From Leptolyngbyaceae cyanobacterium JSC-12 (GTDB lineage: Bacteria > Cyanobacteriota > Cyanobacteriia > Leptolyngbyales > Leptolyngbyaceae), in contig CM001633.1 of assembly GCA_000309945.1 (NCBI GenBank), positions 3,436,199-3,500,198 on the forward strand: DNA of 64,000 nucleotides, in the 5' to 3' direction. Below the pieces are notes generated by a model. That model worked only from the letters and a program-made list of their open reading frames with translations. It was not told the DNA's origin and did not search any database. Positions 7,789 through 48,827 of the stretch are shown one piece after another. A program made the position numbers and the translations under genes. Every line of letters starts with the position of its first letter. Position 1 is the stretch's first letter.

Positions 7789-9651
7789 ATGCAAGAGTTG
7801 TTGTTGGAAGCGAGCTGGTGGATTCCACTGTACGGACTCATTGGAGCAGTGTTAACGCTGCCATGGTCTACGGGCTATATCCGGCAAACGGGACCCCGCC
7901 CCGCAGCTTATTTCAATCTACTGATGACGATCGCGGCTCTGATTCATGGGGCGATAGCGTTTCGCGCTAGTCTTAGCTTAGCTCCAGATCCAATTGTGAT
8001 CCCTTGGTTCAGGGCAGCAGATTTAGATTTATCCTTTGTGATCGATATTTCTCCCGTCAGTTTGGGAGCCGCCGAGTTGGTCACAGGGTTGAGTATCCTG
8101 GCACAATTTTTCGCACTGGGCTACATGGAGAAAGACTGGGCACTGGCACGCTTCTTTGCCCTGATGGGGTTCTTTGAAGGAGCGATGACTGGTTTAGCGT
8201 TGAGTGATTCTCTGTTTTTATCCTACGCTCTGCTAGAAATGCTTACGCTCTCCACTTACTTGCTGGTAGGGTTTTGGTATGCTCAACCACTGGTTGTAAC
8301 TGCAGCGCGGGATGCGTTTTTAACCAAACGGGTGGGAGATGTGTTGCTGCTGATGGGGGTTGTGGCACTAGCAACACTTTCTGGCACTTTAAACTTTCAA
8401 GAACTATACGACTGGGCTGAAACGGCTACTCTTACGCCAACTGTATCTACCTTGCTAGGGTTAGCTTTGATTTCAGGACCAATTGGGAAATGTGCCCAGT
8501 TTCCTTTACACATGTGGTTGGATGAGGCGATGGAGGGCCCTAACCCAGCGTCGATTCTACGAAATTCGGTTGTGGTCGCTTGTGGTGCCTATATTCTGAT
8601 CAAACTTCAGCCAATTCTCATCCTGTCGCCTGTTGCGTCTATCGCACTGGTTGTCCTGGGAACCATGACTGCGATTGGGGCTTCCCTGGTGGCGATCGCG
8701 CAAATTGACATAAAGCGGGCACTGTCTCATTCAACCAGCGCCTATTTGGGCATTGTCTTCATTGCAGTGGGGATGCAATGGACAAACGTGGCGTTGCTCG
8801 TATTATTTGCTCACGCGATCGCCAAAGCCCTTTTGTTCATGAGTACTGGCTCTATTATCGTCACTACAAGTACTCAAGACATTACAGAAATGGGAGGCTT
8901 ATGGTCACGTATGCCTGCAACGACAACAGCCTTTATAGTAGGAGCCTGTGGACTGGTCGGCTTGCTCCCACTAGGTGGTTTCTGGGCCTTACGAGAAGGG
9001 GTAAATGCCTTCTGGTATGATGACGCCTGGCTGGTTGGGGTTTTGCTAACGGTGAATGCCCTGACCGCTTTCAATTTAACCCGTCTCTTTCGTCTAGTGT
9101 TTTTAGGGCAACCCAAGGTTAAAACTCGTCGTGCTCCAGAAGTCCCCTGGACAATGGCAGTTCCACTCGTATCTCTCACGATTATCACGTTGCTAGTTCC
9201 AACAATCCTCAGTCGTCTATATCTCTTACCAGACTGGGCATACATGAATCACTATGCTGTCATTTTGGTGATGATTTCTGGGTTAGTTGGATGTTTAATG
9301 GGAGCGTTGGCTCAGTTTAGCAGGGTTTGGACACGCTCCGTGCAGATGCCCTTCAAATTCCTGCAAGATATGCTTGCTTACGACTTCTACATCGATCAGC
9401 TTTATCGAGTAACCGTCGTTTGGTTTGTTAACCTTGTGTCTCAGTTAAGTGCCTGGTTTGATCGCTACGTTGTCGATGGAATCGTCAATTTTGTCGGGTT
9501 AGCATCCATCTTTGGAGGAGAAAGCCTGAAATACAGCATATCCGGACAATCCCAGCTATATTTGCTAACAATTTTACTGGGGGTTAGTTTGTTAGGAGCC
9601 TGGCTCACATATCCCATGTGGAATTATCTGTTGAACTATTGGATTGGCTAG
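7789..9651 (+). CDS. ndhF4: NDH-1 CO2-uptake subunit NdhF4 (NdhF3/F4 type)
   Basis: Subunit 5-like proton-pumping membrane protein of the NDH-1 form dedicated to CO2 uptake in the thylakoid membrane. The 620-residue protein is almost wholly transmembrane. It has the antiporter-like core with a conserved Lys/His-rich segment (GPIGKCAQFPLHMWLDEAMEGPNPAS) and IDIKRALSHST, and a C-terminal lateral-helix region (AYDFYIDQLYRVTVVWF). The ATG at 7789 follows a GGGGAAAGGTGG site. It is followed by ndhD and a CupB-like gene, the arrangement of a CO2-uptake NDH-1 module. F4 rather than F3 is inferred from the CupB-like partner and from the absence of cupS downstream. Confidence 0.85.
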   Translation: MQELLLEASWWIPLYGLIGAVLTLPWSTGYIRQTGPRPAAYFNLLMTIAALIHGAIAFRASLSLAPDPIVIPWFRAADLDLSFVIDISPVSLGAAELVTGLSILAQFFALGYMEKDWALARFFALMGFFEGAMTGLALSDSLFLSYALLEMLTLSTYLLVGFWYAQPLVVTAARDAFLTKRVGDVLLLMGVVALATLSGTLNFQELYDWAETATLTPTVSTLLGLALISGPIGKCAQFPLHMWLDEAMEGPNPASILRNSVVVACGAYILIKLQPILILSPVASIALVVLGTMTAIGASLVAIAQIDIKRALSHSTSAYLGIVFIAVGMQWTNVALLVLFAHAIAKALLFMSTGSIIVTTSTQDITEMGGLWSRMPATTTAFIVGACGLVGLLPLGGFWALREGVNAFWYDDAWLVGVLLTVNALTAFNLTRLFRLVFLGQPKVKTRRAPEVPWTMAVPLVSLTIITLLVPTILSRLYLLPDWAYMNHYAVILVMISGLVGCLMGALAQFSRVWTRSVQMPFKFLQDMLAYDFYIDQLYRVTVVWFVNLVSQLSAWFDRYVVDGIVNFVGLASIFGGESLKYSISGQSQLYLLTILLGVSLLGAWLTYPMWNYLLNYWIG

Positions 9652-9716
9652 CGTTTTGTTCGGGCGTATTGCCCATTAGCTAATCACAAATTTTTTTATT
9701 ATTCCAGTTCCAACCT

Positions 9717-11264
9717 ATGCTCAGTGTTTTAGTCTGGATTCCTATCGTTGCAGCTTTGCTAATTGGGATATTGCCTCGCTCCAGTTCATCTACTATGGTG
9801 CGTTGGGTAGCACTCATTGCTACGGCGACATCCTTCCTCTGGTCCATTGTGTTAGCGGTGAGGTTTGATGCGCTGGATACAAGTGCTCAGTTTCAAGAAC
9901 TTTTGCCCTGGATCGAATCGTTAGGCTTAAGCTATCAGCTTGGGTTGGATGGTTTATCACTGCCACTAGTAATCATTAACGGGCTACTCACCTGGATCGC
10001 CGTTTACAGTTCCGATGAAGCAATTCAACGTCCTCGCCTCTATTACGCATTAGTTCTGCTACTGAGTGGAGGCGTTGCTGGAGCGTTTTTGGCACAGAAC
10101 TTGCTGTTATTCTTTCTATTCTACGAACTTGAGCTAATTCCCCTCTATTTCTTAATTGCAATTTGGGGAGGTAGCCGTCGGGGATATGCTGCTACTAAAT
10201 TTCTAATCTACACCGCACTTTCAGGAATTCTGATTCTGGCAGCATTCTTAGGGGTTGTTTGGCTGAGCCATGCCACCAGTTTTGAGTATGGTGCCATTAA
10301 TACTCAGCTTTTGCCAATCGCCAGCCAATTGGTGTTGTTGAGCTTGTTGCTTGTTGGCTTTGGTATCAAAATTCCACTGGTTCCTCTGCATACCTGGTTG
10401 CCTGATGCTCATGTGGAGGCTTCCACACCAATTTCGGTATTGCTAGCAGGAGTATTGCTGAAGTTAGGAACGTATGGATTGTTGCGTTTTGGTTTACAGC
10501 TTTTCCCAGAAACCTGGGGAATTTTAGCACCCTATTTGGCAACTTGGGCAGTGGTAAGTGTGCTGTATGGAGCCTTTGCTGCGATCGCTCAAACCGACAT
10601 GAAAAAAATGGTGGCTTATAGTTCGATTGGGCACATGGGGTACATCCTACTCGCTGCTGCGGCTGCCACACCGTTGAGCATCTTGGGCACCGTGTTTCAA
10701 ATGGTCAGCCATGGTTTGATTTCAGCCATGTTGTTTTTGCTAGTGGGCGTAGTCTATAAGAAAACAGGAACTCGCGATATTAATATCTTGCGTGGACTCC
10801 TCAATCCCGAACGGGGAATGCCCATCGTCGGTACGTTGATGGTAACTGGTGTGATGGCAAGTGCTGGAATACCCGGTATGATGGGATTTATCTCAGAGTT
10901 CCTAGTCTTCCGGGGTAGTTTTCCAGTTTTTCCGGTGCAAACGCTGCTGTCGATGGTGGGAACAGGGCTAACTGCTGTGTACTTCCTGTTGCTCGTAAAC
11001 CGGACGTTCTTCGGGCGATTGCCGGAACAATTTTCCAACTTGCCGAAAGTTTATTGGTCCGAGCGATTACCAGCGTTCGGATTGGCTATTTTGATTGTGT
11101 TTTTGGGACTTCAACCAAGTTGGATGGGGCGTTGGAGTGAAACCACCACAACAGCCATGCTAGTACCGGAAGCAGCGATCGCAACGCTTGCTCCCACTAA
11201 ACCACCAGAAACCCTCAAAGCTCCCTCAACTGCTAATTCTTCAAGACCCATGAATACCCTGTAG
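9717..11264 (+). CDS. ndhD4: NDH-1 CO2-uptake subunit NdhD4 (NdhD3/D4 type)
   Basis: Subunit 4-like proton-pumping membrane protein, 515 residues with about 14 predicted helices. Typical segments are LSYQLGLDGLSLPLV, the glutamate-containing FFLFYELELIPLYFLIAIWGG, KIPLVPLHTWLPDAHVEASTPISVLLAGVLLKLGTYGLLRF, and AQTDMKKMVAYSSIGHMGY. The C-terminal tail after the last helix is short, Pro/Ala-rich and probably stromal/cytosolic. It lies 65 bp behind ndhF4 and 33 bp before the cupB-like gene, so one operon is likely. The D4 label follows the same reasoning as for ndhF4. Confidence 0.87.
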   Translation: MLSVLVWIPIVAALLIGILPRSSSSTMVRWVALIATATSFLWSIVLAVRFDALDTSAQFQELLPWIESLGLSYQLGLDGLSLPLVIINGLLTWIAVYSSDEAIQRPRLYYALVLLLSGGVAGAFLAQNLLLFFLFYELELIPLYFLIAIWGGSRRGYAATKFLIYTALSGILILAAFLGVVWLSHATSFEYGAINTQLLPIASQLVLLSLLLVGFGIKIPLVPLHTWLPDAHVEASTPISVLLAGVLLKLGTYGLLRFGLQLFPETWGILAPYLATWAVVSVLYGAFAAIAQTDMKKMVAYSSIGHMGYILLAAAAATPLSILGTVFQMVSHGLISAMLFLLVGVVYKKTGTRDINILRGLLNPERGMPIVGTLMVTGVMASAGIPGMMGFISEFLVFRGSFPVFPVQTLLSMVGTGLTAVYFLLLVNRTFFGRLPEQFSNLPKVYWSERLPAFGLAILIVFLGLQPSWMGRWSETTTTAMLVPEAAIATLAPTKPPETLKAPSTANSSRPMNTL

Positions 11265-28480: not shown

Positions 28481-29404
28481 TTATCTGGCTATTTTGTGAG
28501 CAAACCAGCTTAAATCTCGCTGTAACTCATGACGCAGTGCCCGTGTCCATTCGCGGGTTGTCATGGGAAACAGTTGCTCATACGGGTGAAAAATCCTGGC
28601 TCCCGTTTTGGTCTGCAAATGTCGATAGATTGGGATTAAAGAAATTTCACGCTTTGCCGGATTTAGTGGATTAGGATCCAGTTTCAAACGCACTGAATTC
28701 ACCGCCCGCTGTAACGGATTCTTCACCTGAAACACGGGGTCCACATCAACCCACCAAGCGTTGAATCCATGATTTTCACAAAATGGAATACCGAAGATTT
28801 GAGCATACATCGGAATCCGATATTCTATAAATCCTAACTCCGGCTGTTCTATAATCGAGTATTGCTCTAGAAATGCTTTGGGAAAACAGATCACAATAAA
28901 CAAACACCCTAGAGGCTCATCACGATAGTTGTAGGTTTTGGTAACGTACTCAAGAAACTTAAGATATTGCTGTCTGCGCTCTGGAACTTTTGGCGCTACC
29001 CACTCCCAATCGTTTTCTATTTCCCGAATCGGCCTCAATCCGGATAGCAAAATCTGCTCAGGTTTAAGAGTGGGGAACAGATGCTCAACTGATTCAAAAA
29101 CTAACATATCCCACTGCACGATCGCGATCGTATCCCAGTCAAGACATTTTCCACGCTCCCGAAACCAATGAGTAATCATCAAGTCTCCCTGAAGCCATTT
29201 CCAGAGAGAATCCTTGTTCTCCTTGAACACATAGAAGTCATCAAGATACTCACCCAACAAAGCTTGGTATTGCTCAGCAGTGGCTGGATCTCCTCCATAC
29301 AACCCATAAATCGGCACATGAGGATTATATTGACGCAAAAGCTCGAGGCGATTTTTGCACACATTCGGCTGTTTATAGAACCAAAACAAAATCGCCAGCT
29401 TCAT
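28481..29404 (-). CDS. Unrecognised protein of the surface-polysaccharide cluster, 307 aa
   Basis: No family is recognised with confidence. The N-terminus (MKLAILFWFYKQPNVCKNRLELLRQYNPHVPIYGLYGG) and IAIVQWDMLVFES look like a nucleotide-diphospho-sugar transferase fold with a DxD-like position replaced by WDM. HPYEQLFP is near the C-terminus. There is no membrane segment. Its start codon overlaps the stop of the upstream GT4 gene by one base (TAATG), so it is coupled to it. A glycosyltransferase-like role is inference from fold impression and context. Confidence 0.6.
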   Translation of the reverse strand: MKLAILFWFYKQPNVCKNRLELLRQYNPHVPIYGLYGGDPATAEQYQALLGEYLDDFYVFKENKDSLWKWLQGDLMITHWFRERGKCLDWDTIAIVQWDMLVFESVEHLFPTLKPEQILLSGLRPIREIENDWEWVAPKVPERRQQYLKFLEYVTKTYNYRDEPLGCLFIVICFPKAFLEQYSIIEQPELGFIEYRIPMYAQIFGIPFCENHGFNAWWVDVDPVFQVKNPLQRAVNSVRLKLDPNPLNPAKREISLIPIYRHLQTKTGARIFHPYEQLFPMTTREWTRALRHELQRDLSWFAHKIAR

Positions 29405-30737: not shown

Positions 30738-31667
30738 CTATTGCTGAATCTCAGCATAGCTAGTCCGTCTCATATCGTAATCGGGACCTTTTCCTCGGAT
30801 ATAGTTTGCGATCGCCCTTACGTAATGCATCACGTTACACCGATAGGTTTCAAACTCACTTCCCAAAATTGCGACACTCGGATTCACCGACCTTCTCACC
30901 GTTGGAGCCGCACTCGCATACATTGGCTTCAGATGAGCAGGATAATAGTGGGCTGTTAACGACTTCCGGCTAAACCGCGGATCCTGATTGTTGTACGCTC
31001 CATGAATCGTATAAGGGTGCCAAAAGAGTACATCACCTTTACTCAAAGGAAAGCTGCGATATTCATAGCCCCCTTCATTAATCAAAGCATTAATGGATTT
31101 TACAAAAGCATCATGATCTGAAAAATTAGCTGCATTATCCCGTTCAATCACTTTCCCTTTGTGGCTACCAGGAAGCACAAAAAAGCAACCTGCACTTTCA
31201 TGAATATCTTCCAGCGCATACCAAACGGCAACCATCTGTCCAGGAGGATCAGAATCTAAATAGTAGTGATCCTGGTGTTCAATAGTTCCGGTAGATTTAT
31301 CAAAAAACATGTTTTGCATCATGACATGGCCAGAAGCGCCTGAGAGAGAACCCAGCACATCAATTACTGCGTCATCAACTAAGCAATGCTCCACTGATTG
31401 AGAAAACCCTCGCCAAAGTTTCAAACTCGCAGGATTCAACATCGAATTCTCAATAAAGCCTTCTGGAGTCAGTTTAGGACGAATGGGAAGATGAGTATCC
31501 TGGCTGAAAAATACAAACAACCTGGACCGTTTGATTTGCTCATAAGCTGCGAGAAGCGTTTGAATTTTGGAGTGATTGAGCAATCCTTGAACCACGACAT
31601 AGCCATAAGAGTCGTAATAATTTTTGATTGCGTCCTTCTCACTTGCGGGGAACTTTGTTAGTGTCAT
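30738..31667 (-). CDS. Phytanoyl-CoA dioxygenase (PhyH)-like oxygenase
   Basis: Fe(II)/2-oxoglutarate-dependent oxygenase of the PhyH family, 309 residues. The metal site reads H131-x-D133 (EHQDHYYLD) with the distal His in HPYTIHGAYNN, and the 2-oxoglutarate Arg is probably in PRFSRKSLTAHY. The ATG at 31667 has GGAG 7 nt upstream; an earlier TTG is unlikely. It lies between two paralogous glycosyltransferases in one leftward unit, so it may hydroxylate a sugar, lipid or other part of the surface glycan. Substrate is unknown. Confidence 0.87.
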   Translation of the reverse strand: MTLTKFPASEKDAIKNYYDSYGYVVVQGLLNHSKIQTLLAAYEQIKRSRLFVFFSQDTHLPIRPKLTPEGFIENSMLNPASLKLWRGFSQSVEHCLVDDAVIDVLGSLSGASGHVMMQNMFFDKSTGTIEHQDHYYLDSDPPGQMVAVWYALEDIHESAGCFFVLPGSHKGKVIERDNAANFSDHDAFVKSINALINEGGYEYRSFPLSKGDVLFWHPYTIHGAYNNQDPRFSRKSLTAHYYPAHLKPMYASAAPTVRRSVNPSVAILGSEFETYRCNVMHYVRAIANYIRGKGPDYDMRRTSYAEIQQ

Positions 31668-31694
31668 TCTATGCTCCAAAAAAACTTTAATAAC

Positions 31695-38017: not shown

Positions 38018-38184
38018 AGAGACCAGCAAAACTTTAATTCTATTTTGTAGACTCTGAGTGAAAAATACAAATCAGTAGGTAGAAAAGTCAACATTCTCCA
38101 GGCATTGAGCCATTTCAAAGGGGAATTAAGTTCGAATTAAGCTCACCAAATCTGAGTCCATTCTTTCACTTGGAGAAATCGGAA

Positions 38185-40596
38185 ATGGGAAGTATTGACA
38201 CTTTTTTGCCTGCGAATGCTCTGTCTGCTGATTTCGATTGGTCTACACAGCAGTCCGTTGCGGGATTATCTACAGAGCCATCTCTCTATAGTTGGGGACC
38301 TTTGCTATTGCCCTCAAGTACTGCATTTTACCCAGGCTCTTCCAGCAAAGAAGAGGATTATGAGGACTACAGGGAAGATTCGTGGCGCGATCGCCCCATC
38401 CTTCGTGCCCCACTTGACACTACTCCACCCATAGCTAGCTTAAGTGCTGCTAACGTCACAGTTGGGGGCGGAACCGTTTACCAGTTTACGGTTACTTATT
38501 CAGATGATACGGCGATGAACCTAGCGACCCTTGATGGCGGTGATATTCGAGTAACTGGTCCAAATTGCTTTACTCAAATGGCTGCTTTAGTTAGCATTAG
38601 CACGCCTCAAAGTGGTAGTCCACCCACAGCAACCTACCAAATCAACGCGCCTGGAGGACGCTGGGATCTTGCCGATAATGGAATATACACGCTTATCTTG
38701 GAGCCGAATCAAGTTAGCGATACCAGTGGCAACTTCATCCCAACAGCAACCCTGGGAACGTTTTTGGTAGATGCGACAACCACTCGACCGTCGGTCGAAG
38801 CCAATATAGTTTTTCCGGCAGATGCAGGGGTATTGAATGTTAAAGACTTTGGTGCAAAAGGAGATGGTGTCACAGACGATACAGCCGCCATCCAAGCAGC
38901 ACTCAACGCCTTCCCCAATGGCAGACGAATTATCTATTTGCCCAATGGCACATACTTGGTTTCTAATACCTTGTCATGGTCCGCTGGGACTGGCATTGGC
39001 GATGATTACAAAAACACCATCTTGCAAGGGCAGAGCGAAAGCGGAGCAATCATTAAGCTGAAAGATAATGCTCCTGGCTTTACGAATGTGAATGCACCAA
39101 AATCTGTTATCTTTACCGGTCCCGCGCCTGCCCAGCGTTTTGGCAACTCAATTCGGAACTTGACCGTGGATACAGGGGCTGGCAATCTGGGCGCCATTGG
39201 GGTTCAGTTCAATGCCAGCAATCAGGGTTCAATACGCAACGTCACCATTCGCTCCGGGGATGGGCAGGGGGTGAATGGGTTGGATATGAATTTCACAGAT
39301 GAAATCGGACCGCTCTTGGTGAAAGATGTTACGGTCAATGGATTTCAATACGGGATTCGAACTGGGTTTACAGTCAATAGCCAAACCCTGGAAAATATTA
39401 CGCTCAATAATCAAAGCGTATATGGGCTGTATAACACTGGTCAAGTTATTAACATTCGTGGCTTAACCAGTAATAACGCAGTCACTGGAATTTATAACGC
39501 TGGTGGGCGAGTTACCGTGCTTGATTCATCATTCAATGGAATCGGTGAAAGTGCTGCCACCAGACCCGCCATTATCAACGACTTTCAGCTTGATCTGGTA
39601 GTTCGCAACATTACAACTTCAGGCTATCAATCAGCTATCCAAAGTGCAGGAACAACGCTGGCAGGTCCATCTGTTTCCGAGTTTATTTCGGGCGGTGTAA
39701 TCAGTCAGTTTTCTTCTCCAATGCGGACGCTGAATTTGCCCATTCAGGAAACTCCAGATGTTCCTTGGGATGATCCTGTCACCACTCCTTGGGCAAACGT
39801 GGTTTCTTTCGGGGCAATTCCTAACGATGGGCTGGATGATACTGCTGCAATTCAGGCTGCAATTGATTCAGGTAGCACGACTGTCTACTTTCCAGTAGGA
39901 ACTTATAACATCCAGAACACGATTCTAGTTCGCAACAATGTTCGCCGAGTGCTCGGAACAGAAGCAAACATTGAGATGCCCAATACCGTCAATCCTGGAT
40001 TCAAAGTAGTTGATGGCACAAGTCCTGTTGTGGTGATTGAACGACTTCAAGCTGGGTTTAACTTTACGCCAACATTTGAAAATGCATCTTCCCGAACACT
40101 CGTGATACGAGACTCTACTAATGTATCCGGTAATATGACAGGTCGCGGTGATGTATTCCTCGAAAATGTAGTCTCCAATCCTTTTCAAAATTGGACATTC
40201 AACGGGCAGAATGTTTGGGCGCGGCAATTTAATGTGGAAAATGAGGGGACTCATGTTATCAACAATGGTGCAAATCTCTGGATTTTTGGATTGAAAACTG
40301 AACGGGGCGGAACCTTGATTGACACTAGAGCAGGTGGAAAAACTGAGTTGCTTGGTGGTCTTGCCTATACAACGACGGCAGGTCCAAACGGCAATCAGAG
40401 CGACCCGATGTTCATCAATACTGAATCTTCAATTTCAATCACGCTGGGTGAGGTTAATTTTGGAATATTGGGCTACTCTACCTACGTCCAGGAGACAAGA
40501 GGAGGAGTGACTCGTAATTTGTCGAGTAGTAGCCTCCAGAATTACATTGGTGGAGGCAAGCATATTCCGCTCTATGTGGGATATTCAGGTAATTGA
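38185..40596 (+). CDS. Two-domain pectate-lyase-like beta-helix protein
   Basis: 803 residues. A low-complexity N-terminus with an acidic stretch (SSKEEDYEDYREDSWRDR, about 55-75) is followed by an Ig-like domain (DTTPPIASLSAANVTVGGG to about 200). Two Pectate_lyase_3 modules follow, each opened by the same signature: VLNVKDFGAKGDGVTDDTAAIQ (about 221) and WANVVSFGAIPNDGLDDTAAIQ (about 536). Right-handed beta-helix rungs with many Asn follow. No signal peptide is seen; cyanobacterial surface proteins of this kind often leave by type I secretion. It may cut or modify the polysaccharide of the cluster. ATG 38185 has GGAG upstream. Confidence 0.87.
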   Translation: MGSIDTFLPANALSADFDWSTQQSVAGLSTEPSLYSWGPLLLPSSTAFYPGSSSKEEDYEDYREDSWRDRPILRAPLDTTPPIASLSAANVTVGGGTVYQFTVTYSDDTAMNLATLDGGDIRVTGPNCFTQMAALVSISTPQSGSPPTATYQINAPGGRWDLADNGIYTLILEPNQVSDTSGNFIPTATLGTFLVDATTTRPSVEANIVFPADAGVLNVKDFGAKGDGVTDDTAAIQAALNAFPNGRRIIYLPNGTYLVSNTLSWSAGTGIGDDYKNTILQGQSESGAIIKLKDNAPGFTNVNAPKSVIFTGPAPAQRFGNSIRNLTVDTGAGNLGAIGVQFNASNQGSIRNVTIRSGDGQGVNGLDMNFTDEIGPLLVKDVTVNGFQYGIRTGFTVNSQTLENITLNNQSVYGLYNTGQVINIRGLTSNNAVTGIYNAGGRVTVLDSSFNGIGESAATRPAIINDFQLDLVVRNITTSGYQSAIQSAGTTLAGPSVSEFISGGVISQFSSPMRTLNLPIQETPDVPWDDPVTTPWANVVSFGAIPNDGLDDTAAIQAAIDSGSTTVYFPVGTYNIQNTILVRNNVRRVLGTEANIEMPNTVNPGFKVVDGTSPVVVIERLQAGFNFTPTFENASSRTLVIRDSTNVSGNMTGRGDVFLENVVSNPFQNWTFNGQNVWARQFNVENEGTHVINNGANLWIFGLKTERGGTLIDTRAGGKTELLGGLAYTTTAGPNGNQSDPMFINTESSISITLGEVNFGILGYSTYVQETRGGVTRNLSSSSLQNYIGGGKHIPLYVGYSGN

Positions 40597-40637: not shown

Positions 40638-41981
40638 ATGACTACGCAATTAGAGACGGTTACTAAACCAAAAGGATATGTTACAAATTCCAACCTGACT
40701 CTGTTTGCGGTCGCAACGGCTCTATTCCCTCGCGTTCTCATCCCATTAAAAATTCCTTCGGTTATTAATTTTCTGCACTTTGCAATGATTCCACTTGCTT
40801 GTGGATCAACGTTGTTAAATTCTCGCAGCAAAGATCCCAAGCAAGTTGCCCTTTCAAAACAACTTCTAGGTGGGTTATTTTTTTTCCTGATCGTAGTGTT
40901 TGCAAGTGCACTGTTGAATGATGCAGGTGTTGTTAATGCAGTCTTGAGCTATCTGCTGCTAGCAGAGCCTTTTATTCTCATCTTGACAATTGTCAGCTTG
41001 CCAATGGCACCAGATAACTATGAGCGGTTCCGAACCTGGATCTTGCAATGTGCCATGATCAACCTGATATTTGCTTACGTTCAGAAATATGTTTTTCGGT
41101 TGGATCGATTAATTGGACTGGAAGATAACGTGAAAGGCATCTTCATCGGGCAAGGAGCTGGCCACGTGATTGGTGGCTCCGTCGCGATGACCTTTGCTGT
41201 GTATTATTTCGTAACTGCTAAGAGCAAACCATTTTGGTTTCGGGTTGCGATCGTCTTAGCCTGTTTCAATCACTTGATTATTTCAGATACTAAGCAAGTA
41301 CTCTTATCCTTTATCGCTGCTTATGTCTTACTTTATTTGATTAATGTCAAAGATATTAGAAAAACACTCATGTACCTCGTGTTAGGGGTTATTGCTGGAA
41401 GTGCCTTCCTTTGGGCGATTTATAACATTGAATATCTTGAACCCTACACCGTATGGATTCGACCAGAAATTTATGGTCCGGATGGTGAAGCAACCCGCTT
41501 AAAGTTTGCCACATTCCGAATTGCTGTTGGACACTATCATTCTCCCCTCAATTGGTTGTTAGGGCTTGGACCAGGTCATACAGTAGGGCGGCTAGGGGGA
41601 TGGATGTTATACGCTTACTGGAACCTGCTTGGACCATTAGGAGCCACTATGCATATTGCAAGTGCTGAGGTCTGGATGGCAGTGGGAGCAAGCTGGTTAG
41701 GAGATCAATCTAGCTTGTTCTCCCCTTTGTTCGGTTGGGCAGGGATTTGGGGAGATTTAGGAATTCTTGGAATCGCAGCTTATTTCTACCTGGCATTTAT
41801 CGTATGGCAGAAAGTTTGTGTAATTGATCTTTCCAAGTATTTAATGCTAACGGTATTTGTTTTCGGTCTCATCTTTTCTCAACTTGAAGAACCAGGCTAC
41901 ACATTGTTTGTTGCCACGATGATTGGGTTGGGTTGGCAGGATTATCAAAACAACGTTAGGAACAAACTGGCACAGCAATGA
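40638..41981 (+). CDS. Wzy-like polysaccharide polymerase
   Basis: Polytopic membrane protein of 447 residues with about 10-12 helices. A large periplasmic loop (about 270-345) carries RPEIYGPDGEATRLKFATFRIAVGHYHSPLNWLLGLGPGHTVGRLGG, which resembles the loop of O-antigen ligase/polymerase proteins. It would link repeat units on the outer face of the membrane. It is the last gene of the rightward EPS unit, 41 bp after the beta-helix gene. Ligase versus polymerase cannot be separated from sequence alone; context favours a polymerase. Confidence 0.8.
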   Translation: MTTQLETVTKPKGYVTNSNLTLFAVATALFPRVLIPLKIPSVINFLHFAMIPLACGSTLLNSRSKDPKQVALSKQLLGGLFFFLIVVFASALLNDAGVVNAVLSYLLLAEPFILILTIVSLPMAPDNYERFRTWILQCAMINLIFAYVQKYVFRLDRLIGLEDNVKGIFIGQGAGHVIGGSVAMTFAVYYFVTAKSKPFWFRVAIVLACFNHLIISDTKQVLLSFIAAYVLLYLINVKDIRKTLMYLVLGVIAGSAFLWAIYNIEYLEPYTVWIRPEIYGPDGEATRLKFATFRIAVGHYHSPLNWLLGLGPGHTVGRLGGWMLYAYWNLLGPLGATMHIASAEVWMAVGASWLGDQSSLFSPLFGWAGIWGDLGILGIAAYFYLAFIVWQKVCVIDLSKYLMLTVFVFGLIFSQLEEPGYTLFVATMIGLGWQDYQNNVRNKLAQQ

Positions 41982-42251: not shown

Positions 42252-45200
42252 CTAGGATGCTTTCTGCATCACTACTACATTAACCGGAACATTGGGCGGA
42301 AAAGCAGAGCCAAGCTGGACAGGAATCTTCTCGCCTTGAATTTGCACTGTTAATTGCTTGCCATCCCAATTCCAATTCACTAGATTTCCACCAACCGCAA
42401 GTCCTTTCACATTCAGGGGCTGGCTCAACCATTGCGGTTGAACTCCCGCACCAATAACCAAGGTGGGGATACTCTTTGCTTGATCAACATATGCCAACAT
42501 ATCTAATTGCAGCAATGCCATTTCAGCCGCAGTCCGGTAGTGAGGAGTGATGTTGGGAGGATTGACCCAACCGCGAAACCGATGCCAGTGAGAAAGGCTC
42601 TGAGGGGAAGCACTTGCTTCTGGACCATCATTATTTCCCCACCAGGTATACAGTCCGGGCGAAGCTTGATGTTCCCAGAACCATTTCAGGGTTGACCAAA
42701 CACGATCGCGATCGCCCAACAATAGCCACTGATGGGTTTCAGCCAAATTGAAAAAAGGATTAGCGGGTGGTTGGCGCAGTCGTCCCGTCTTGTCATGCTG
42801 AGCAGCCCAATGTGTTTGCAGCGATTGGTCAAACTCATTTTGGTTAATCGCTGCAATCCAACTGGGCCAGAGGCCGTTAGTGTATGAGGCATCTAATCTG
42901 GAGAACTTAGCCTGGAATCGTTTTTGCCAGACTGTTTGCATTTGGTTTGCTTGCTCACGCCAACGTTTAGCATCCGCTGGTTGATTCATACGATCGGCTA
43001 AGGCAGCCGCATCTTGCAGTGCACGGTAGCTCATGATACTGGCAGTCGTATCAAGACTAATCAATCCCTGTGCTCCATCCATTTTGCCTGAAACTGTGTC
43101 TGTCGTGAGAAAGTCTGGATGCTCTGAGAAGGGAATTTTAGACTGTTCAACTACCGGATATCCGGGTCGGTTAGTGGTTGCCATATCCATAATCAGTTCC
43201 GCCTTGCGACGAACGTGCGACCAAAGCCACTGATCGTAATCTGGCTGCTGCAACTGCTTGGCAACGGTTTCTAACGCCCAAATCCCCAATGCTGGAATAT
43301 CAGCTTCTGAGTGAGTACCGTTGAGAAAGTCGGTTTCGGCAAAGTAGGTGGATAGTTGCCTGGCAACTTCTAGCTGCCCCGACCGGGCAAGCGCAACCAA
43401 TTGATAAGCACCATCTCGAAAACGAGGTAAGGTATAACTGAGTGGATCACTGGGGCGTGTGCGATCGCCAACCAACCCCATTAAGAGGTGATTCACCTGC
43501 GCCTTGAGACTATCTACAAATTGCTGATCAGGCAAGTTCAGAGCGAACGTCTCTGGAGTTTCTGATACCTGCAAAACGGGTTTGGGCAATGTGGCAGAAT
43601 CTTCAATCACCAAGTTCCACGTAGTACCTTCACCCAACTCCACCCGAGCAAATCCCCAGCCCTTCTCATCGCTCCACTGAGTCGCATCTGATTTCTGCTG
43701 CATCCAGCCTGGTGATCGCTCGCTACCCAGATAAACCCTGGCTTGAGACGGAATGTTCTTAATCGACCAGCGATCGTTAATTAGCAAGCGTTGCTCATCC
43801 CAGTTCAACGAGGAGATAGCACCTCCGGCAGGTCCTACACTCCGAAACACGATCGCAGTCCGATGACTGGGCTGGGCTGGCACCTTTAAATTCAATTGCC
43901 ATGTTCCAACACTCAGAGGCGACCAGATTGCTTCATAGAATTCTGTATTTGCCCGAATTCCAGGCGTTTTGCTGCCAGGAATGTCCACGAATTGCTGCTG
44001 AATCTTATCCAGTGGAATCGCATCACTTGTGGTTTGCAAGTTGCCATCTTTATCAAGCAACCAGATTGTAACGCCAAAACTCCCCGCAACTGGACTGAAG
44101 CTACCACCAGGCTCATAGTAGGCTTTGTGGCTTTGATCAGTCCCAGGTATGGCTACAACGACATGCCCAACATTCCGCCCCCAGGGATCGGAGGGACGTA
44201 CCTGCATCTGTGCTTCAAGCCGTTGCTGTTGAGTTCCATAATCTAGCAAGGCAGTTGTGACCTGGTTGAACTGCGATCGGTTATTGATACCCGCACTCAC
44301 AACCAGCACCGCAGCAAACACCAATCCCACCAAACGCAAACGTGTCAGGGAACTGAAGGCCGCCAGTGTGATCAGCAAAGGGGCAAAGTGCAGTGAATAG
44401 ATAAACGTCTCTTCAGAACCGTAAATGCTGTGCATGAAGAGTTGTCCAAGAATCGTTAATCCCAGAACAATCCGCAGTTTGGGATATTGATTTGTAGAGA
44501 AAAAGCCCCAGATGCCTAAACCCAGAAGTCCAGTCCAAGCAATAACGGCGATCGTGCCCCAAAAACCGCCCGAACCAGGCGCTAGCGTATCAACCTGAAT
44601 CTCAGCCCATCCTGGTCTGTCGAGAGAGTCACTAAATTGGGATGCTGGCATCACAATGGTTTGATAGAAAAAGGAGCTAATCGCTGACAGCACACTACCG
44701 TGCTCTGGTTCAGCCATAAACTTCTTTTCCCCAATGAAGGTTCGTAAAGAAAAGGAGTAACCTGAATTGCGAAAAATGACTCGTTGGACGATCCAGAGCA
44801 CATTTGCCACGCCAAAACTAACTAGCATAATCTGCAGGAACTTTTTCCAACGCTGATTAACCAGCGTGGTCAAAATTCCTACCATCCAATTGGTAATCGT
44901 AACGCTGAGAGTGACAACATTTAATGCTACAAACCAGGCTGGAGACAACTTCTGATATTGAGTTAGCACCACAAACACAAGCGCAATCAGAATCGTTAAT
45001 GAACCGAATGGGAAGGACTCTGGGACAACAAACCAAAAGATTGCAGCAGCACTAACACCCCCAACCAAACTAAATAAGGTTGCATCTAACCGCCGCCCAC
45101 TCACCAAGCGAAACAGGACGAACAACAGCCCGGTCCAGATTGCAACAACCAACGCAAGCACAACTCTGGCAGCCAGGATTGGTTCAAGGCGAAATATTTT

Positions 45201-45470
45201 TCCTACTAAAAAGATTGGTGGAAATATAAAAAGTGGAAATAAGGGATGTTTATTGTTACGGCCAAAATCGCTTTGTACGCTGGTAATGTTGCCAAAGACA
45301 GTGGGAATATCACTACCAAACCAAGCATCTTGAGCATAAAAGTCTTGAATAATCGGATCGGGTACCTGTTGCGATGCCAGAAAAGACATCCCTGCGATCG
45401 CAACTGCCAGCGATAACACAATAAAGATGTCTATCCGATACTGTTGAATATATTTTCGAAGGGTAATCAT
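42252..45470 (-). CDS. GT-C-like membrane domain fused to an (alpha/alpha)6 glycosidase-like domain
   Basis: 1072 residues in three parts. Residues 1 to about 440 hold roughly ten transmembrane helices with a GT-C-like first loop (SDFGRNNKHPLFPLFIFPP, in the place of the D/HPPLY motif of lipid-sugar transferases). A beta-rich part follows (about 460-660). The last 400 residues are helical, with SYTLPRFRDGAYQLVALARSGQ, HSEADIPALGIWALETVAKQL and WWGNNDGPEASASPQSLSHWHRFRG, as in six-hairpin glycosidases. The C-part would lie outside the cytosol. It may transfer and also trim glycan. Catalytic acids cannot be assigned by eye. Confidence 0.75.
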   Translation of the reverse strand: MITLRKYIQQYRIDIFIVLSLAVAIAGMSFLASQQVPDPIIQDFYAQDAWFGSDIPTVFGNITSVQSDFGRNNKHPLFPLFIFPPIFLVGKIFRLEPILAARVVLALVVAIWTGLLFVLFRLVSGRRLDATLFSLVGGVSAAAIFWFVVPESFPFGSLTILIALVFVVLTQYQKLSPAWFVALNVVTLSVTITNWMVGILTTLVNQRWKKFLQIMLVSFGVANVLWIVQRVIFRNSGYSFSLRTFIGEKKFMAEPEHGSVLSAISSFFYQTIVMPASQFSDSLDRPGWAEIQVDTLAPGSGGFWGTIAVIAWTGLLGLGIWGFFSTNQYPKLRIVLGLTILGQLFMHSIYGSEETFIYSLHFAPLLITLAAFSSLTRLRLVGLVFAAVLVVSAGINNRSQFNQVTTALLDYGTQQQRLEAQMQVRPSDPWGRNVGHVVVAIPGTDQSHKAYYEPGGSFSPVAGSFGVTIWLLDKDGNLQTTSDAIPLDKIQQQFVDIPGSKTPGIRANTEFYEAIWSPLSVGTWQLNLKVPAQPSHRTAIVFRSVGPAGGAISSLNWDEQRLLINDRWSIKNIPSQARVYLGSERSPGWMQQKSDATQWSDEKGWGFARVELGEGTTWNLVIEDSATLPKPVLQVSETPETFALNLPDQQFVDSLKAQVNHLLMGLVGDRTRPSDPLSYTLPRFRDGAYQLVALARSGQLEVARQLSTYFAETDFLNGTHSEADIPALGIWALETVAKQLQQPDYDQWLWSHVRRKAELIMDMATTNRPGYPVVEQSKIPFSEHPDFLTTDTVSGKMDGAQGLISLDTTASIMSYRALQDAAALADRMNQPADAKRWREQANQMQTVWQKRFQAKFSRLDASYTNGLWPSWIAAINQNEFDQSLQTHWAAQHDKTGRLRQPPANPFFNLAETHQWLLLGDRDRVWSTLKWFWEHQASPGLYTWWGNNDGPEASASPQSLSHWHRFRGWVNPPNITPHYRTAAEMALLQLDMLAYVDQAKSIPTLVIGAGVQPQWLSQPLNVKGLAVGGNLVNWNWDGKQLTVQIQGEKIPVQLGSAFPPNVPVNVVVMQKAS

Positions 45471-45548: not shown

Positions 45549-46652
45549 TCAAACCCCAAACAAAAGGCGAGATAATACTTTTCGTCTCATCAACAATGCA
45601 GTAATTCCCCAAGCAAGCAACAAGATAACCATTGAAACTAAAAGAAATACGATAATACTTGGCTCGTTAACATAATTAGGATTCAGGCGAACAAAAATAG
45701 ATTGAAAGATCTCAACAAAAAAGAGATGCATCAAATAAATGCCAAAAGCACAAAGCCCCAAACTCTCGATTAGAGAAATGCCTTTCAAGGAGGCAGAGTT
45801 TAAGGAAGCAGAACAGGCGATCGCAGCAATTAAAGCAGCATAACCTCTTGAAACTTCATAGATAGCTTGCGGCAGCAGAAAAGCACCAACAGCATTAAGC
45901 ACAACAAAAGCGAGTATCCATATGAGGGCATGACGGCTTACTCGCCTTAAAAAATGTTGATTTAGAGCTGGATGAGTTAAAAAGGCAGCAACCATTACAT
46001 ACGGCAAGCACTTTAAAGCCCAAAAAATTTCAACTAAGAACAACCGTAACAATGGGTTAGAGTTGCCTGACGAAAAAATAGCAGCCAACAGAGACTCAAA
46101 AGCAACATTCTCTGGAGTTTTCAATCCATTCCCAGTCAGCAAAACTATTTCATAAATCCCAATGCTTACCAAAGTGAGAAATCCTAATCCCTTGAAAGAA
46201 AACCTTCTTCTAATCAAAATTTCTACCAACCTGATTAACAAGGTTCCAGTTGCTAGCAAGGGAAGAAAATATAAATGAAAGGCTGCTCCGCCAAAAAAGA
46301 CCAGAGAAAGCGGATCCTGAAAAAGCTGTGCTAGCTTGCCAGACTCTCCAGCAGCAATATACTTCGCAGATTTATAAACTAGGTAAAAAGCAGACCAAAT
46401 TCCATAGGGGATTAAAAGCCGAACTAAGCGCTGACGTAACGGATATGAATCCTTAGAGTGGTAAAGCTTATTAATTGCTAGATAGAAAGCTGTCGCGAGG
46501 AAAAAAGGAACTGCAAACATCGAAAAGTCAGTAACTTTTGACCAAGCAACAGGCACCGTTTGAATTCCTTCATCAATATGCAAGAGTATAACAGCGTATA
46601 TTGCCAAACCACGAAACAGGTCAATCCCAATTAAACGCTGTTGCCCTTTCAT
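45549..46652 (-). CDS. Acyltransferase-3 family membrane protein
   Basis: 367 residues with about ten transmembrane helices, typical of OafA/NodX-type acyltransferases that O-acetylate surface sugars. The diagnostic N-terminus is present: RLIGIDLFRGLAIYAVILLHIDEG, containing the conserved Asp-Arg-Gly stretch and His of the family, followed by VPFFLATAFYLAI. ATG 46652 is used; the preceding GTG is possible. It lies between the GT-C gene (66 bp) and the fusion gene (78 bp) in one leftward unit, so it likely decorates the same polymer. Confidence 0.88.
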   Translation of the reverse strand: MKGQQRLIGIDLFRGLAIYAVILLHIDEGIQTVPVAWSKVTDFSMFAVPFFLATAFYLAINKLYHSKDSYPLRQRLVRLLIPYGIWSAFYLVYKSAKYIAAGESGKLAQLFQDPLSLVFFGGAAFHLYFLPLLATGTLLIRLVEILIRRRFSFKGLGFLTLVSIGIYEIVLLTGNGLKTPENVAFESLLAAIFSSGNSNPLLRLFLVEIFWALKCLPYVMVAAFLTHPALNQHFLRRVSRHALIWILAFVVLNAVGAFLLPQAIYEVSRGYAALIAAIACSASLNSASLKGISLIESLGLCAFGIYLMHLFFVEIFQSIFVRLNPNYVNEPSIIVFLLVSMVILLLAWGITALLMRRKVLSRLLFGV

Positions 46653-46718
46653 CACTCACAGATCCTCTGAAGTAAATTTAATCAGTCAAACGTAAATTCA
46701 GGAGCTATTTAACTAATT

Positions 46719-48383
46719 TCAACTACTAACCTCTTCAAGCTTCCAAAGTTGAGTCGGTTCACCTGGAACTGGGCTAGAATCTGGCATTTCAACTAACTTC
46801 TCTAACCTATATTTTCGCTGTTTAATTTCTGCTTGCATTGCCTTTGTTGGGTTCAGCAGGAAAACATCTCCTTCATTGATAAACTTAAAGCTGCTCGAGT
46901 TTTTCTCATCAACAAACATTAACTTCACTTCCGGCTTCAAGTTATAGAAGAAAACTGTTCCTGGACGCTGTCGGTTGACGATAACTAGGGGATTTTCTGC
47001 CTGAGCGATGATCTGAGCAACCCTCAGAGTTCCTTCACCACCATATTTATTCCACCAAGTATTTGCTTGCAATATAATTGAGCAAAAGAAAATACCAGAA
47101 GTCAGCAAAACTGCTGTTACTGCCAGCCAAACATTACGCTTCCAATTTTTCTCAGCAAATTCTATTGATAAAGCTTTAGCTGACAGCAAATGGGCAACAC
47201 TAATTTGAACGCCTAAGAAACAAGGGATCAGATATCTAGGCCAGATTTGGCGATTACCCCCTAAAATAAGGTCAGCAATGACTAATGGTAAAGCCGTTGA
47301 TCCGATCAATAAAAATACAAATAGATGGACCTGTTTTGGAGTCTTTCGATACAGGTAATAGACGGAATATCCGACTAACACCAAGATGAGGGGAAGTAAA
47401 AAGTAGAATCCAAATTTTCCAAGCCCAAAGTATTCACTAGCTCGAGGATCAACAAATGAAAGACTAATATTTTCAGACCACAACCTGATGGCACCTGGAA
47501 GAGACAATGTATGTTGACTCATCCAAGCTGATGCGCCTTTAAAGTAAGAAAGGTGTAACAAGACTGCGATCGCCCAGGGCAAAAAGGCAATAAAACCTAA
47601 CAAGGTTGCGAAAAGAAACTGACGAAAAACTTTTGTGAATCGAAAAGACTCAATTGAAAACACATATATTCCATAGCCCAATACAACCAATACAAAGAAA
47701 TACTGAGAGTACAATCCTAAAATCAAAGATGCAATATAAGCAAACCAGGCAACTTTCTTGCGTGTTCTAAGTGCCCAAAGTAAACAAGCACCTGAAAAGA
47801 GAACGACCAAAGTTAATAAACTGTAGGGTCTAGCTTCTTGAGCATAAATAACCTGGATCGGGGATACGGCTAACAGGGCAGTTGCCATCCCACCAACTAA
47901 CGGAGAACTAAATAGTTCTAAGCACAACCAATACATACAAGGCAACGCTAGTATGCTAAAAACAGCCGATATGCTGCGCAACACAGAGACCGAGTGTCCA
48001 AGACTTTCAACCCAGAAACGCGTAGTTAAAAAGTAAAGAGGTGGATGAACATCTGTATAAAGCTTCTGAAGCGTGTCTGCTAAGGTCCTGTCTGAATTGG
48101 GATATTGATATCTCAAAAAGTCACTAACGCTAACTATCTTGTCTGTAGAAAGCTGATCAAGAACTTCCGACTCGGCATACCCTGAAATTACAGAGAATGA
48201 TGCATACCCAGAGACAACCGAGAATGTATGCGCTTCATCACCCCAGACAGGCTTAGTATCAAGATTAAGGATGCGACAAGCAACGCCGATCGCTAGTATT
48301 ACAACCAGCAAAATCAGCAGCCAGTTCTTAGTAAATGTACTAACTTCTGACAAACGCTTCCTTGTTCTCATGTTAAAAATCAT
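46719..48383 (-). CDS. GT-C family glycosyltransferase (ArnT/PMT-like)
   Basis: About 554 residues, 11-13 transmembrane helices. The first extracytoplasmic loop has the metal-binding DE of GT-C enzymes (KPVWGDEAHTFSVVSGYA) and VHPPLYFLTTRFWVESLGHSVSVLRSISAVFSILALP. FLAVSPIQVIYAQEARPYSLL-type sequence follows. It would use a polyprenyl-phosphate sugar on the outer face of the membrane. A short internal repeat (FSVVSGYAS/FSVISGYAE) lies just after the DE motif. The open frame reaches 48431 with TTG; ATG 48383 or 48371 is the likely start. Confidence 0.87.
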   Translation of the reverse strand: MIFNMRTRKRLSEVSTFTKNWLLILLVVILAIGVACRILNLDTKPVWGDEAHTFSVVSGYASFSVISGYAESEVLDQLSTDKIVSVSDFLRYQYPNSDRTLADTLQKLYTDVHPPLYFLTTRFWVESLGHSVSVLRSISAVFSILALPCMYWLCLELFSSPLVGGMATALLAVSPIQVIYAQEARPYSLLTLVVLFSGACLLWALRTRKKVAWFAYIASLILGLYSQYFFVLVVLGYGIYVFSIESFRFTKVFRQFLFATLLGFIAFLPWAIAVLLHLSYFKGASAWMSQHTLSLPGAIRLWSENISLSFVDPRASEYFGLGKFGFYFLLPLILVLVGYSVYYLYRKTPKQVHLFVFLLIGSTALPLVIADLILGGNRQIWPRYLIPCFLGVQISVAHLLSAKALSIEFAEKNWKRNVWLAVTAVLLTSGIFFCSIILQANTWWNKYGGEGTLRVAQIIAQAENPLVIVNRQRPGTVFFYNLKPEVKLMFVDEKNSSSFKFINEGDVFLLNPTKAMQAEIKQRKYRLEKLVEMPDSSPVPGEPTQLWKLEEVSS

Positions 48384-48827
48384 CCTCTCTTGAGTAGTTG
48401 CTGCAGATAAAAGCCTACGGAAGATGAACAACCTAAAATCCAGTGAATCCCATCAAACTAAACCTCATTTTTATTCTGCCAAGAATTTCAAAGATGAAAC
48501 TTGCGTGACCTGTTGAAGGTATTCTCTAAACTTCTCCGAGGCATACCACTCGTGGTGACGAGGGTCTCAAAATCTCGTCATATCAATAAATCTTGACTTT
48601 TCCCAAAACAACACCCATACAACAGGACAACCTTCTGCAACACGAGCAAAATCTATCCTGAAATTGTCTCTTAACTCAATGTAAATACTTATGCTTTATT
48701 GAAACTTCAAAGTTTTATTCATGCAACGCATAATGCTCTACGCAATGCAGCAGGTTGCGCAGGATAATTCGCAGCTTTTTGACTAAACTGCTCATTCTTT
48801 TTGTTTGTGGCTAGCAAGACTCTTTAG
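48384..48827. other. Intergenic region, GT-C gene / aldolase (444 bp)
   Basis: Both flanking genes read leftward, so this holds the 3' side of nothing and the leader of the GT-C operon on the left. No ORF, RNA gene or clear terminator is visible. A few imperfect hairpins (for example CACTCGTGGTGACGAGGGT near 48547) are weak. Confidence 0.4.

Follow-up and report, generated by a model that had tools for sequence, protein, structure and literature searches.

A cyanobacterial gene joining a GT-C-like membrane part to a glycosidase-fold module: a candidate periplasmic pentofuranosyl transferase

The fused gene and its protein

The window, a 64,000-nucleotide stretch of contig CM001633.1 of Leptolyngbyaceae cyanobacterium JSC-12 (GCA_000309945.1, positions 3,436,199 to 3,500,198), contains a minus-strand gene whose 1,072-residue product joins a GT-C-like membrane part, a beta-rich middle, and a toroid of glycosidase type. 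We propose, at a probability of about one half (0.52), that it is a periplasmic pentofuranosyl (probably ribofuranosyl) transferase of exopolysaccharide, with the glycosidase-fold module acting as a binding domain. The fusion, the conserved residues, the neighboring genes, and the superfamily relation of the toroid were read from the sequences, and from these we infer the GT-C fold, the topology, the donor, the acceptor, and binding rather than cleavage. The gene is laid out as follows.

42252..45470, minus strand: whole fused gene, 1,072 amino acids, an intact open reading frame (ORF) with an ATG start; 11 distinct full-length fused proteins, that of the window included, were aligned
44199..45470, minus strand: residues 1-424, membrane part, putative GT-C-like glycosyltransferase, from hydrophobic stretches and invariant residues
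43533..44198, minus strand: residues 425-646, beta-rich domain, sandwich-like by position, from strands of a low-confidence model and Foldseek, without sequence-profile support
42495..43532, minus strand: residues 647-992, (alpha/alpha)6 six-hairpin glycosidase-like toroid, from Pfam matches below cut-off, hhalign with controls, a profile search of 386 genomes, and Foldseek and VIA-align on a low-confidence model
42252..42494, minus strand: residues 993-1072 and the stop codon, a short beta tail, from predicted strands
45309..45311, minus strand: codon of D54, the first-loop Asp, an invariant candidate catalytic or donor-binding residue by comparison with GT-C enzymes
45018..45020, minus strand: codon of E151, the second-loop Glu, invariant, with a putative role
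43410..43418, minus strand: codons of R685-D686-G687, a GH15-type sugar-binding Arg-Asp motif, all three residues invariant in 11 of 11 distinct copies

An initial annotation of the window had described one 1,072-residue chain combining a GT-C fold of roughly ten helices, a beta-rich middle, and an (alpha/alpha)6 domain. The chain is a real ORF, with ten other distinct cyanobacterial copies that aligned with the window protein at 48-79% identity, and neither the nine fused copies from the order nor the three from the phylum sample (the window counted in both) have an internal stop. The three-part architecture was largely upheld: the toroid is supported by sequence and 11 membrane stretches were counted, while the beta middle comes from a low-confidence model. 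Counts of fused copies refer to 11 distinct proteins, since the proteins of loci L012 and L013 are identical. The window genome is cyanobacterial and carries a single copy in 5.53 Mb (the other match had an E-value of 0.58); its nearest relative is a Leptolyngbyaceae metagenome-assembled genome (L012), at 78-79% identity, whose protein equals that of G397, a genome of the same genus.

The 11 hydrophobic stretches of the window protein all lie within residues 13-396. A simple hydropathy count gave 10-12 stretches in all 12 aligned rows (two of which are the same protein), and a stretch starting after residue 470 was found once in L004 and in none of the other rows. With the positive loops placed inside, this pattern suggests a cytoplasmic N terminus and a periplasmic location of the C-terminal part. 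Residues D54, H75, E151, N194, E354, and F356 were invariant over 19 sequences of 15-82% identity, and the pair H75-P76 did not vary among 19 fused and membrane-only proteins. A further alignment, of eight sequences with an alphaproteobacterial relative among them, showed F51, D54, H75, E151, T191, Q229, F233, and F356 to be invariant. This order, in which an acidic residue behind the first helix is followed by a His and then by another acidic residue, is the usual one in GT-C proteins. A 2024 study points out a catalytic Asp close to the first helix (PMC11127046).

Donor-pathway genes near family members

We compared the neighborhoods of 11 fused copies, six membrane-only loci, and six distant loci, all mutually related; loci of Marivivens, Ruegeria, and Halostagnicola were left out of the counts. 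A phosphoribosyltransferase gene (or a UbiA relative) lies beside 16 of the 23 loci, and in 11 of the 23 it is accompanied by genes for a HAD phosphatase and an ArnE-like transporter. All three genes adjoin five of the 11 fused copies (L115, L118, L119, L120, and L123), and two further fused copies, L116 and L117 of genome G405, have the HAD and transporter genes beside them at the contig end. The phosphoribosyltransferase gene was present in all six membrane-only loci, four of which have the complete set, and it or a UbiA relative in five of the six distant loci, two of which have all three genes. In L130, L131, and L132, which come from genomes of 1.8-1.9 Mb in another family of the phylum, the distant GT-C relative is paired with a phosphoribosyltransferase-like UbiA gene, and no HAD or transporter homologue was seen in these stretches.

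The phosphoribosyltransferase passed the NF008978 cut-off in all four fused loci scanned, and an NDxxDxxxD pattern was present in all eight copies looked at. This pattern, compared as a pattern and not by alignment, has the spacing of residues N247, D248, D251, and D255 of a characterized prototype, which are needed for full activity according to the account of that enzyme (PMC11127046). The YqeG-type HAD protein, a predicted phosphatase, was over the cut-off of TIGR01668 in the one copy scanned and has a DLDNT motif in three of three copies; the small SMR/EamA transporter was over the PF00893 cut-off in both cyanobacterial copies scanned. Among plasmids, one of 72,556 has a relative at a tblastn E-value of 1e-5 or better, that of Haematobacter massiliensis (27% identity, E 1e-9; pairwise profile E 4.6e-25), and its GT-C gene is directly preceded by a fused HAD-UbiA gene and an EamA gene over cut-off. 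No relative was found in viral contigs.

The donor set adjoins relatives in both the cyanobacteria and Haematobacter, an arrangement that follows the logic of the three-component pentofuranose systems of Kelly et al. 2024. According to that study, a UbiA-type, HAD, flippase, and GT-C set produces polyprenyl-phospho-ribofuranose, from which the pentose is attached to a polysaccharide on the periplasmic side (PMC11127046). What is new here is the phosphoribosyltransferase set beside cyanobacterial relatives of the membrane part. From gene context, the donor of the window protein would be a lipid-linked pentofuranose.

Within the order, 11 of the 12 genomes that have the GT-C family also encode the phosphoribosyltransferase, compared with six of the 30 that lack the family (five of five and three of 14 by genus; Fisher 2.9e-5 by genome and 0.005 by genus, with no correction for kinship). 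The window genome (G000) has the enzyme at 77% identity, and G387 and G388 have it elsewhere in the genome and not beside the fused gene. Such separation bears on another possibility, that the protein is a GT-C enzyme whose donor is not a pentofuranose but a hexose on polyprenyl phosphate, supplied by a GT2-type synthase. The fused gene of the window is not beside the phosphoribosyltransferase gene, no match to that enzyme was obtained in G397, and the L119 cluster encodes a protein resembling AglJ/polyprenyl-phosphate hexose transferases, below their cut-offs. The phosphoribosyltransferase gene recurs beside relatives of all three kinds (fused, membrane-only, and distant) as well as in Haematobacter, which speaks against a hexose donor; we consider such a donor unlikely.

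For the pentofuranose itself, ribose was preferred to arabinose as the default because a scan of G000 for PF04030, which we take to be the domain of DprE1, gave no match at E<=0.01; an epimerase of a different type may nevertheless be present. In the donor locus of the window genome (L125), a short-chain dehydrogenase/reductase gene (9298-10257) slightly overlaps the phosphoribosyltransferase gene and adjoins a GDP-mannose dehydratase gene; we read it as a fucose synthesis gene, and it may alternatively encode a xylose-forming epimerase.

On Lactococcus plasmid pF27D (L145, 4623-7742), phosphoribosyltransferase, HAD, and GtrA genes stand beside a 462-aa membrane protein annotated as hypothetical, which showed no profile relation to the fused protein (E 0.26). 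This set may be a pentofuranose system whose transferase is unrelated or related only very distantly.

The glycosidase-like module

AlphaFold models of both halves were predicted with the window and L012 sequences as the only input. That of the C-terminal part, of low confidence (pLDDT 42), showed strands at residues 436-647, 14 helices (one of four residues) at 648-991, and strands from there to the end. A Foldseek search with the model of residues 425-1072 gave 21 PDB matches at E<=0.001, all of which are by their descriptions beta-sandwich/(alpha/alpha)6 glycosidases or phosphorylases; the matches span 466-578 columns, but the TM-score was only 0.15-0.24. Their descriptions name GH63, GH52, and GH92, and we take the glucoamylase and glucodextranase matches to be GH15 and those to cellobiose and cellobionic acid phosphorylase to be GH94. 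Directly below them came unrelated helical proteins (HOPS complex, 1.3e-3; a designed filament, 8.9e-3; kinesin light chain, 1.5e-2). VIA-align gave Z up to 13.8, a value that helical models can reach by chance according to the warning of the tool, and near its top a methylmannose polysaccharide hydrolase, cellobiose phosphorylase, glucoamylase, and GH116 stood among a few designed helical proteins.

Sequence evidence for the glycosidase relation is independent of the model and limited to the toroid. Pfam matched the window protein below cut-off with Bac_rhamnosid6H (5e-4) and GH15 (0.014), and at E<=1 GH15 matched four and Bac_rhamnosid6H two of the 12 fused rows. By hhalign, the toroid matched GH15-type sets with pairwise E-values of 1.4e-6 for the best and 3.4e-4 and 4.4e-4 for two others. 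The controls of the best pair gave 0.12 (reversed profile) and 0.13 (best of 25 block shuffles), and the reversed and best block-shuffled controls overall ranged from 0.035 to 0.41. There was no signal between the toroid and a large set led by L031 (E 0.64), or between the middle part and the GH15 and GDE sets (E 0.53 and 0.22). In a search with the toroid profile, the five best sub-threshold matches (E 0.0038-0.046 for one genome, with 386 searched) included four in genes that were also detected independently by the GH15 or Bac_rhamnosid6H model; among ten weak matches, six were not in known glycosidase genes as far as scans with these two models show. The relation of the toroid to the (alpha/alpha)6 glycosidase superfamily is therefore well supported by these profile comparisons, and the exact glycosidase family and the nature of the middle domain are not.

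The initial annotation had left open whether transfer is combined with hydrolysis or with binding. We mapped GH15 residues onto the toroid, using distant alignments in which stricter or global settings leave some positions unaligned. The Arg-Asp motif of GH15 serves in sugar binding, and in both alignments its Asp fell on D686, which like R685 is invariant in all 11 distinct copies. The GH15 catalytic base mapped to the invariant W943 in one alignment and the variable S953 in the other. For the catalytic acid, one alignment gave D798 and the other S805; position 798 is Asp or Glu in 10 of 11 copies and Met in L018. Across residues 923-982, no position has Asp or Glu in at least 10 of the 11 rows. 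Because no conserved carboxylate occupies the base position, hydrolysis of the GH15 type is not supported and does not follow from the glycosidase-like fold. The plain reading of these alignments would be a sugar-binding cavity that was kept while a GH15-type base is absent, so that transfer with binding is the better half of the alternative.

Conservation of the toroid matches that of the membrane part, with a mean pairwise identity of 0.588 for each and with 85 of 346 and 92 of 424 positions, respectively, invariant over 11 copies, which argues for a real function. The acids D686, D714, D724, D746, D826, E983, and D990 are invariant, as are many Trp and Arg residues. The same conservation, including the seven invariant acids and the Asp or Glu at position 798 in 10 copies, could be claimed for a toroid with glycosidase or transglycosidase activity, by which the polysaccharide that the membrane part serves would be trimmed or edited. 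Such an enzyme may use a mechanism other than that of GH15, for instance a GH116-like nucleophile at D686. Neither W943 nor S953 is a carboxylate and the candidate acid is not fixed between alignments or kept in L018, and we judge cleavage improbable. A more specific version, in which a periplasm-facing chain adds pentofuranose branches and reads or edits the same polysaccharide through the toroid by a non-GH15 mechanism, appears doubtful as well; if true, it would couple branching and trimming, or branch spacing, in one protein.

Distribution and history of the fusion

A survey of the fusion across cyanobacteria, which the initial annotation had suggested, was made at the level of the phylum and of the order. 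In a phylum sample, 10 of 386 genomes matched, comprising three with full-length fused proteins (the window included), one with a close membrane-only protein, and six with weak matches to the membrane part only. In the order, 12 of 42 genomes matched: seven had only fused copies, four only membrane-only copies, and one (G405, with two of each) had both; in total there were nine fused and seven membrane-only copies. The C-terminal part alone was not seen in the 386 phylum genomes by single-sequence or profile search, the strong matches being only the three fused proteins. In L134 and L137, tandem membrane-only copies lie between an MptE-like protein before them and a GT4 glycosyltransferase after them; the MptE-like homologue in L020 was below the PF01973 cut-off when scanned.

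On a tree of the membrane part with 23 rows, the fused state needs two changes. Two separate gains account for it in two, and a single fusion that was later lost twice, in L005 and in the pair L021/L026, takes three. Because the C-terminal parts are clearly homologous and were not seen elsewhere, we prefer one fusion followed by losses, a judgment and not a test. Losses of this kind would mean that the module is dispensable in some lineages and, together with the GH15 base not being kept, would suit a toroid that is a decaying remnant without a function of its own. The conservation of the toroid at the level of the membrane part, its invariant polar and aromatic set, and the absence of internal stops from the fused copies make such a remnant highly unlikely.

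Neighboring genes in the window

Four genes flank the fused gene in the window.

45549..46655, minus strand: Acyltransferase_3 membrane protein (PF01757, 1.4e-21), upstream of the fused gene on the same strand with a 78-base gap
46719..48431, minus strand: second GT-C-like protein (PMT_2; PF13231, 4.9e-7, over cut-off), on the same strand as the fused gene, with a 63-base gap
40638..41981, plus strand: polymerase-like membrane protein, converging on the fused gene with a 270-base gap
38170..40596, plus strand: pectate-lyase-like beta-helix protein (PF12708, 3.4e-37), beside the polymerase-like gene also in L117-L120

An Acyltransferase_3 gene also occurs near the fused gene in L012, L115, L116, and L119, and the PMT_2 gene is kept near it in L012. 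A homologue of the polymerase-like gene lies nearby and convergent in L117, L118, L119, and L120, with other genes intervening in some. The neighbors are thus as the initial annotation had described them: the acyltransferase and the second GT-C lie on the strand of the fused gene and may be co-transcribed with it, and the opposing ORF is convergent, but it can be called polymerase-like only, as Pfam and NCBIfam scans gave no family match. The likely acceptor is the polysaccharide of this cluster, whose polymerase-like and pectate-lyase-like genes also accompany the fused gene in L117-L120.

Other genes were observed in these clusters. Two minus-strand genes of the window (28481-29404 and 30738-31679), one for a PhyH dioxygenase and one for a conserved protein that has no Pfam match, have homologues that adjoin each other after the fused gene in L115. 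In G409, the gene next after the fused one encodes an 814-aa protein that combines AMP-binding and carrier (PP-binding) domains (L120, 10857-13301), and an 805-aa homologue lies ~3.5 kb from the fused gene in G346 (L115, 14706-17123); by its domains, this protein may belong to a carrier system that activates acyl groups or amino acids within a polysaccharide cluster. Elsewhere in the window genome, L099 has a 994-aa open frame with a PMT_2 match and, in the part read, a charged, Pro/Ser-rich insert.

Discussion

We propose that the fused protein would be an inner-membrane GT-C glycosyltransferase, whose active site would lie in the periplasm together with the C-terminal 650 residues. To supply its donor, a UbiA-type enzyme would couple the phosphoribose of phosphoribosyl pyrophosphate to polyprenyl phosphate, a YqeG-type HAD phosphatase would strip the 5-phosphate, and a small ArnE/EamA-like transporter would flip the product. 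The GT-C would then move the pentofuranose, by default D-ribofuranose, from the polyprenyl-phosphate carrier onto the exopolysaccharide of the surrounding cluster. The beta-rich and (alpha/alpha)6 module, presumably derived from a glycosidase, would most likely bind the acceptor polysaccharide, like the carbohydrate-binding module (CBM) of the GT-C of Kelly et al. 2024 or the corresponding domains of EmbC and AftD.

A number of results weigh against this proposal. For the membrane part, E354 is not kept in the Haematobacter relative; Pfam DUF6080 matched one of 12 fused rows and one of nine relatives, below cut-off (2e-5); profile comparison with the PMT_2 proteins of its own genome gave no link (E 0.25-0.39); sequence searches of solved structures gave no match to it, and one further such search returned just two matches, to unrelated proteins (E 0.62 and 0.75); and its predicted model was unusable (pLDDT 37.6). 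Since these links were not found, the GT-C assignment is inferred from topology, conserved residues, and context. The low confidence of the C-terminal model also counts here, as does the analogy by which acceptor binding is assigned to the toroid.

On the donor side, adjacency was counted among related loci without a chance level, and none of the three donor genes is near the fused gene in four of 11 loci (the window, L012, L138, and L122). In the window genome, the donor genes lie with two acyltransferase genes (L125) ~290 kb from the fused gene. The sole phosphoribosyltransferase match of G405 adjoins its membrane-only pair, and the contig ends at L116 and L117 may hide none. The UbiA genes of L130-L132 were assigned by similarity to that of L010, itself below the cut-off of its best model (209.5 versus 234), and the ArnE model match of the transporter was also below cut-off. 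Finally, six genomes of the order have the phosphoribosyltransferase without this GT-C family, and G397, a 99%-complete draft of the genus of the window, is the exception in the order, with no phosphoribosyltransferase match at E<=1e-15.

The closest known system is the GT136 prototype of Citrobacter youngae (ORF12/14/15; PMC11127046). Its UbiA-type phosphoribosyltransferase, HAD phosphatase, and flippase have putative counterparts here, as does its GT-C, which combines 11 predicted membrane helices with a beta-rich domain at the periplasmic C terminus. The flippase there is a MATE protein, whereas the transporter here is ArnE/EamA-like, and the HAD protein of cyanobacteria is a separate one, unlike the HAD-UbiA fusion found in the prototype and Haematobacter. 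The C-terminal CBM of the prototype GT-C has 150 residues and, by the same account, binds polysaccharide and was dispensable in the assays of its authors (PMC11127046), whereas the module here is a 650-residue glycosidase-like assembly. Mycobacterial EmbA-C and AftD, as outlined there, also combine a lipid-linked pentofuranose donor, an extracytoplasmic GT-C, and a carbohydrate-binding domain on one chain (PMC11127046); they differ in that the window genome gave no DprE1-type match and the module here has another fold.

Cyclic beta-1,2-glucan synthase (GT84 plus GH94) likewise joins a glycosyltransferase to a glycosidase-superfamily domain in one membrane chain, and a surface for glucan binding is again provided by its C-terminal part. 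Its transferase is, however, GT84 and not GT-C, its soluble domains are all cytoplasmic, and it has a proposed phosphorylase that controls length (PMC10901819). The GH15, GH63, GH94, and GH116 glycosidases share with the predicted module the order of a beta part and then an (alpha/alpha)6 domain and, for GH15, the Arg-Asp motif; in contrast, the GH15 base is not conserved here, and the module is part of a membrane protein and was not found alone in 386 genomes. A transferase with a glycosidase-superfamily domain (cyclic glucan synthase) and a GT-C with a carbohydrate-binding domain (EmbC/AftD, GT136) are already known, and a GT-C joined to a six-hairpin glycosidase-like module did not turn up in the searches made of open-licence papers.

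The initial annotation had regarded this gene as the most likely place in the window for an undescribed polysaccharide-processing step. That expectation is now narrowed, in that the neighbors point to extracytoplasmic pentofuranose transfer, a pathway described in 2024 in other bacteria (PMC11127046) by a study whose main text does not contain the word cyanobacteria. Ribofuranose branches are reported for a Nostoc exopolysaccharide (PMC5635763), and how cyanobacteria add them did not turn up in the searches made of open-licence papers. The finding names a full candidate pathway and one candidate enzyme and would extend pentofuranose systems to cyanobacteria. It also suggests that a glycosidase fold has been re-used on a lipid-donor transferase, which would show how such an enzyme finds its polysaccharide.

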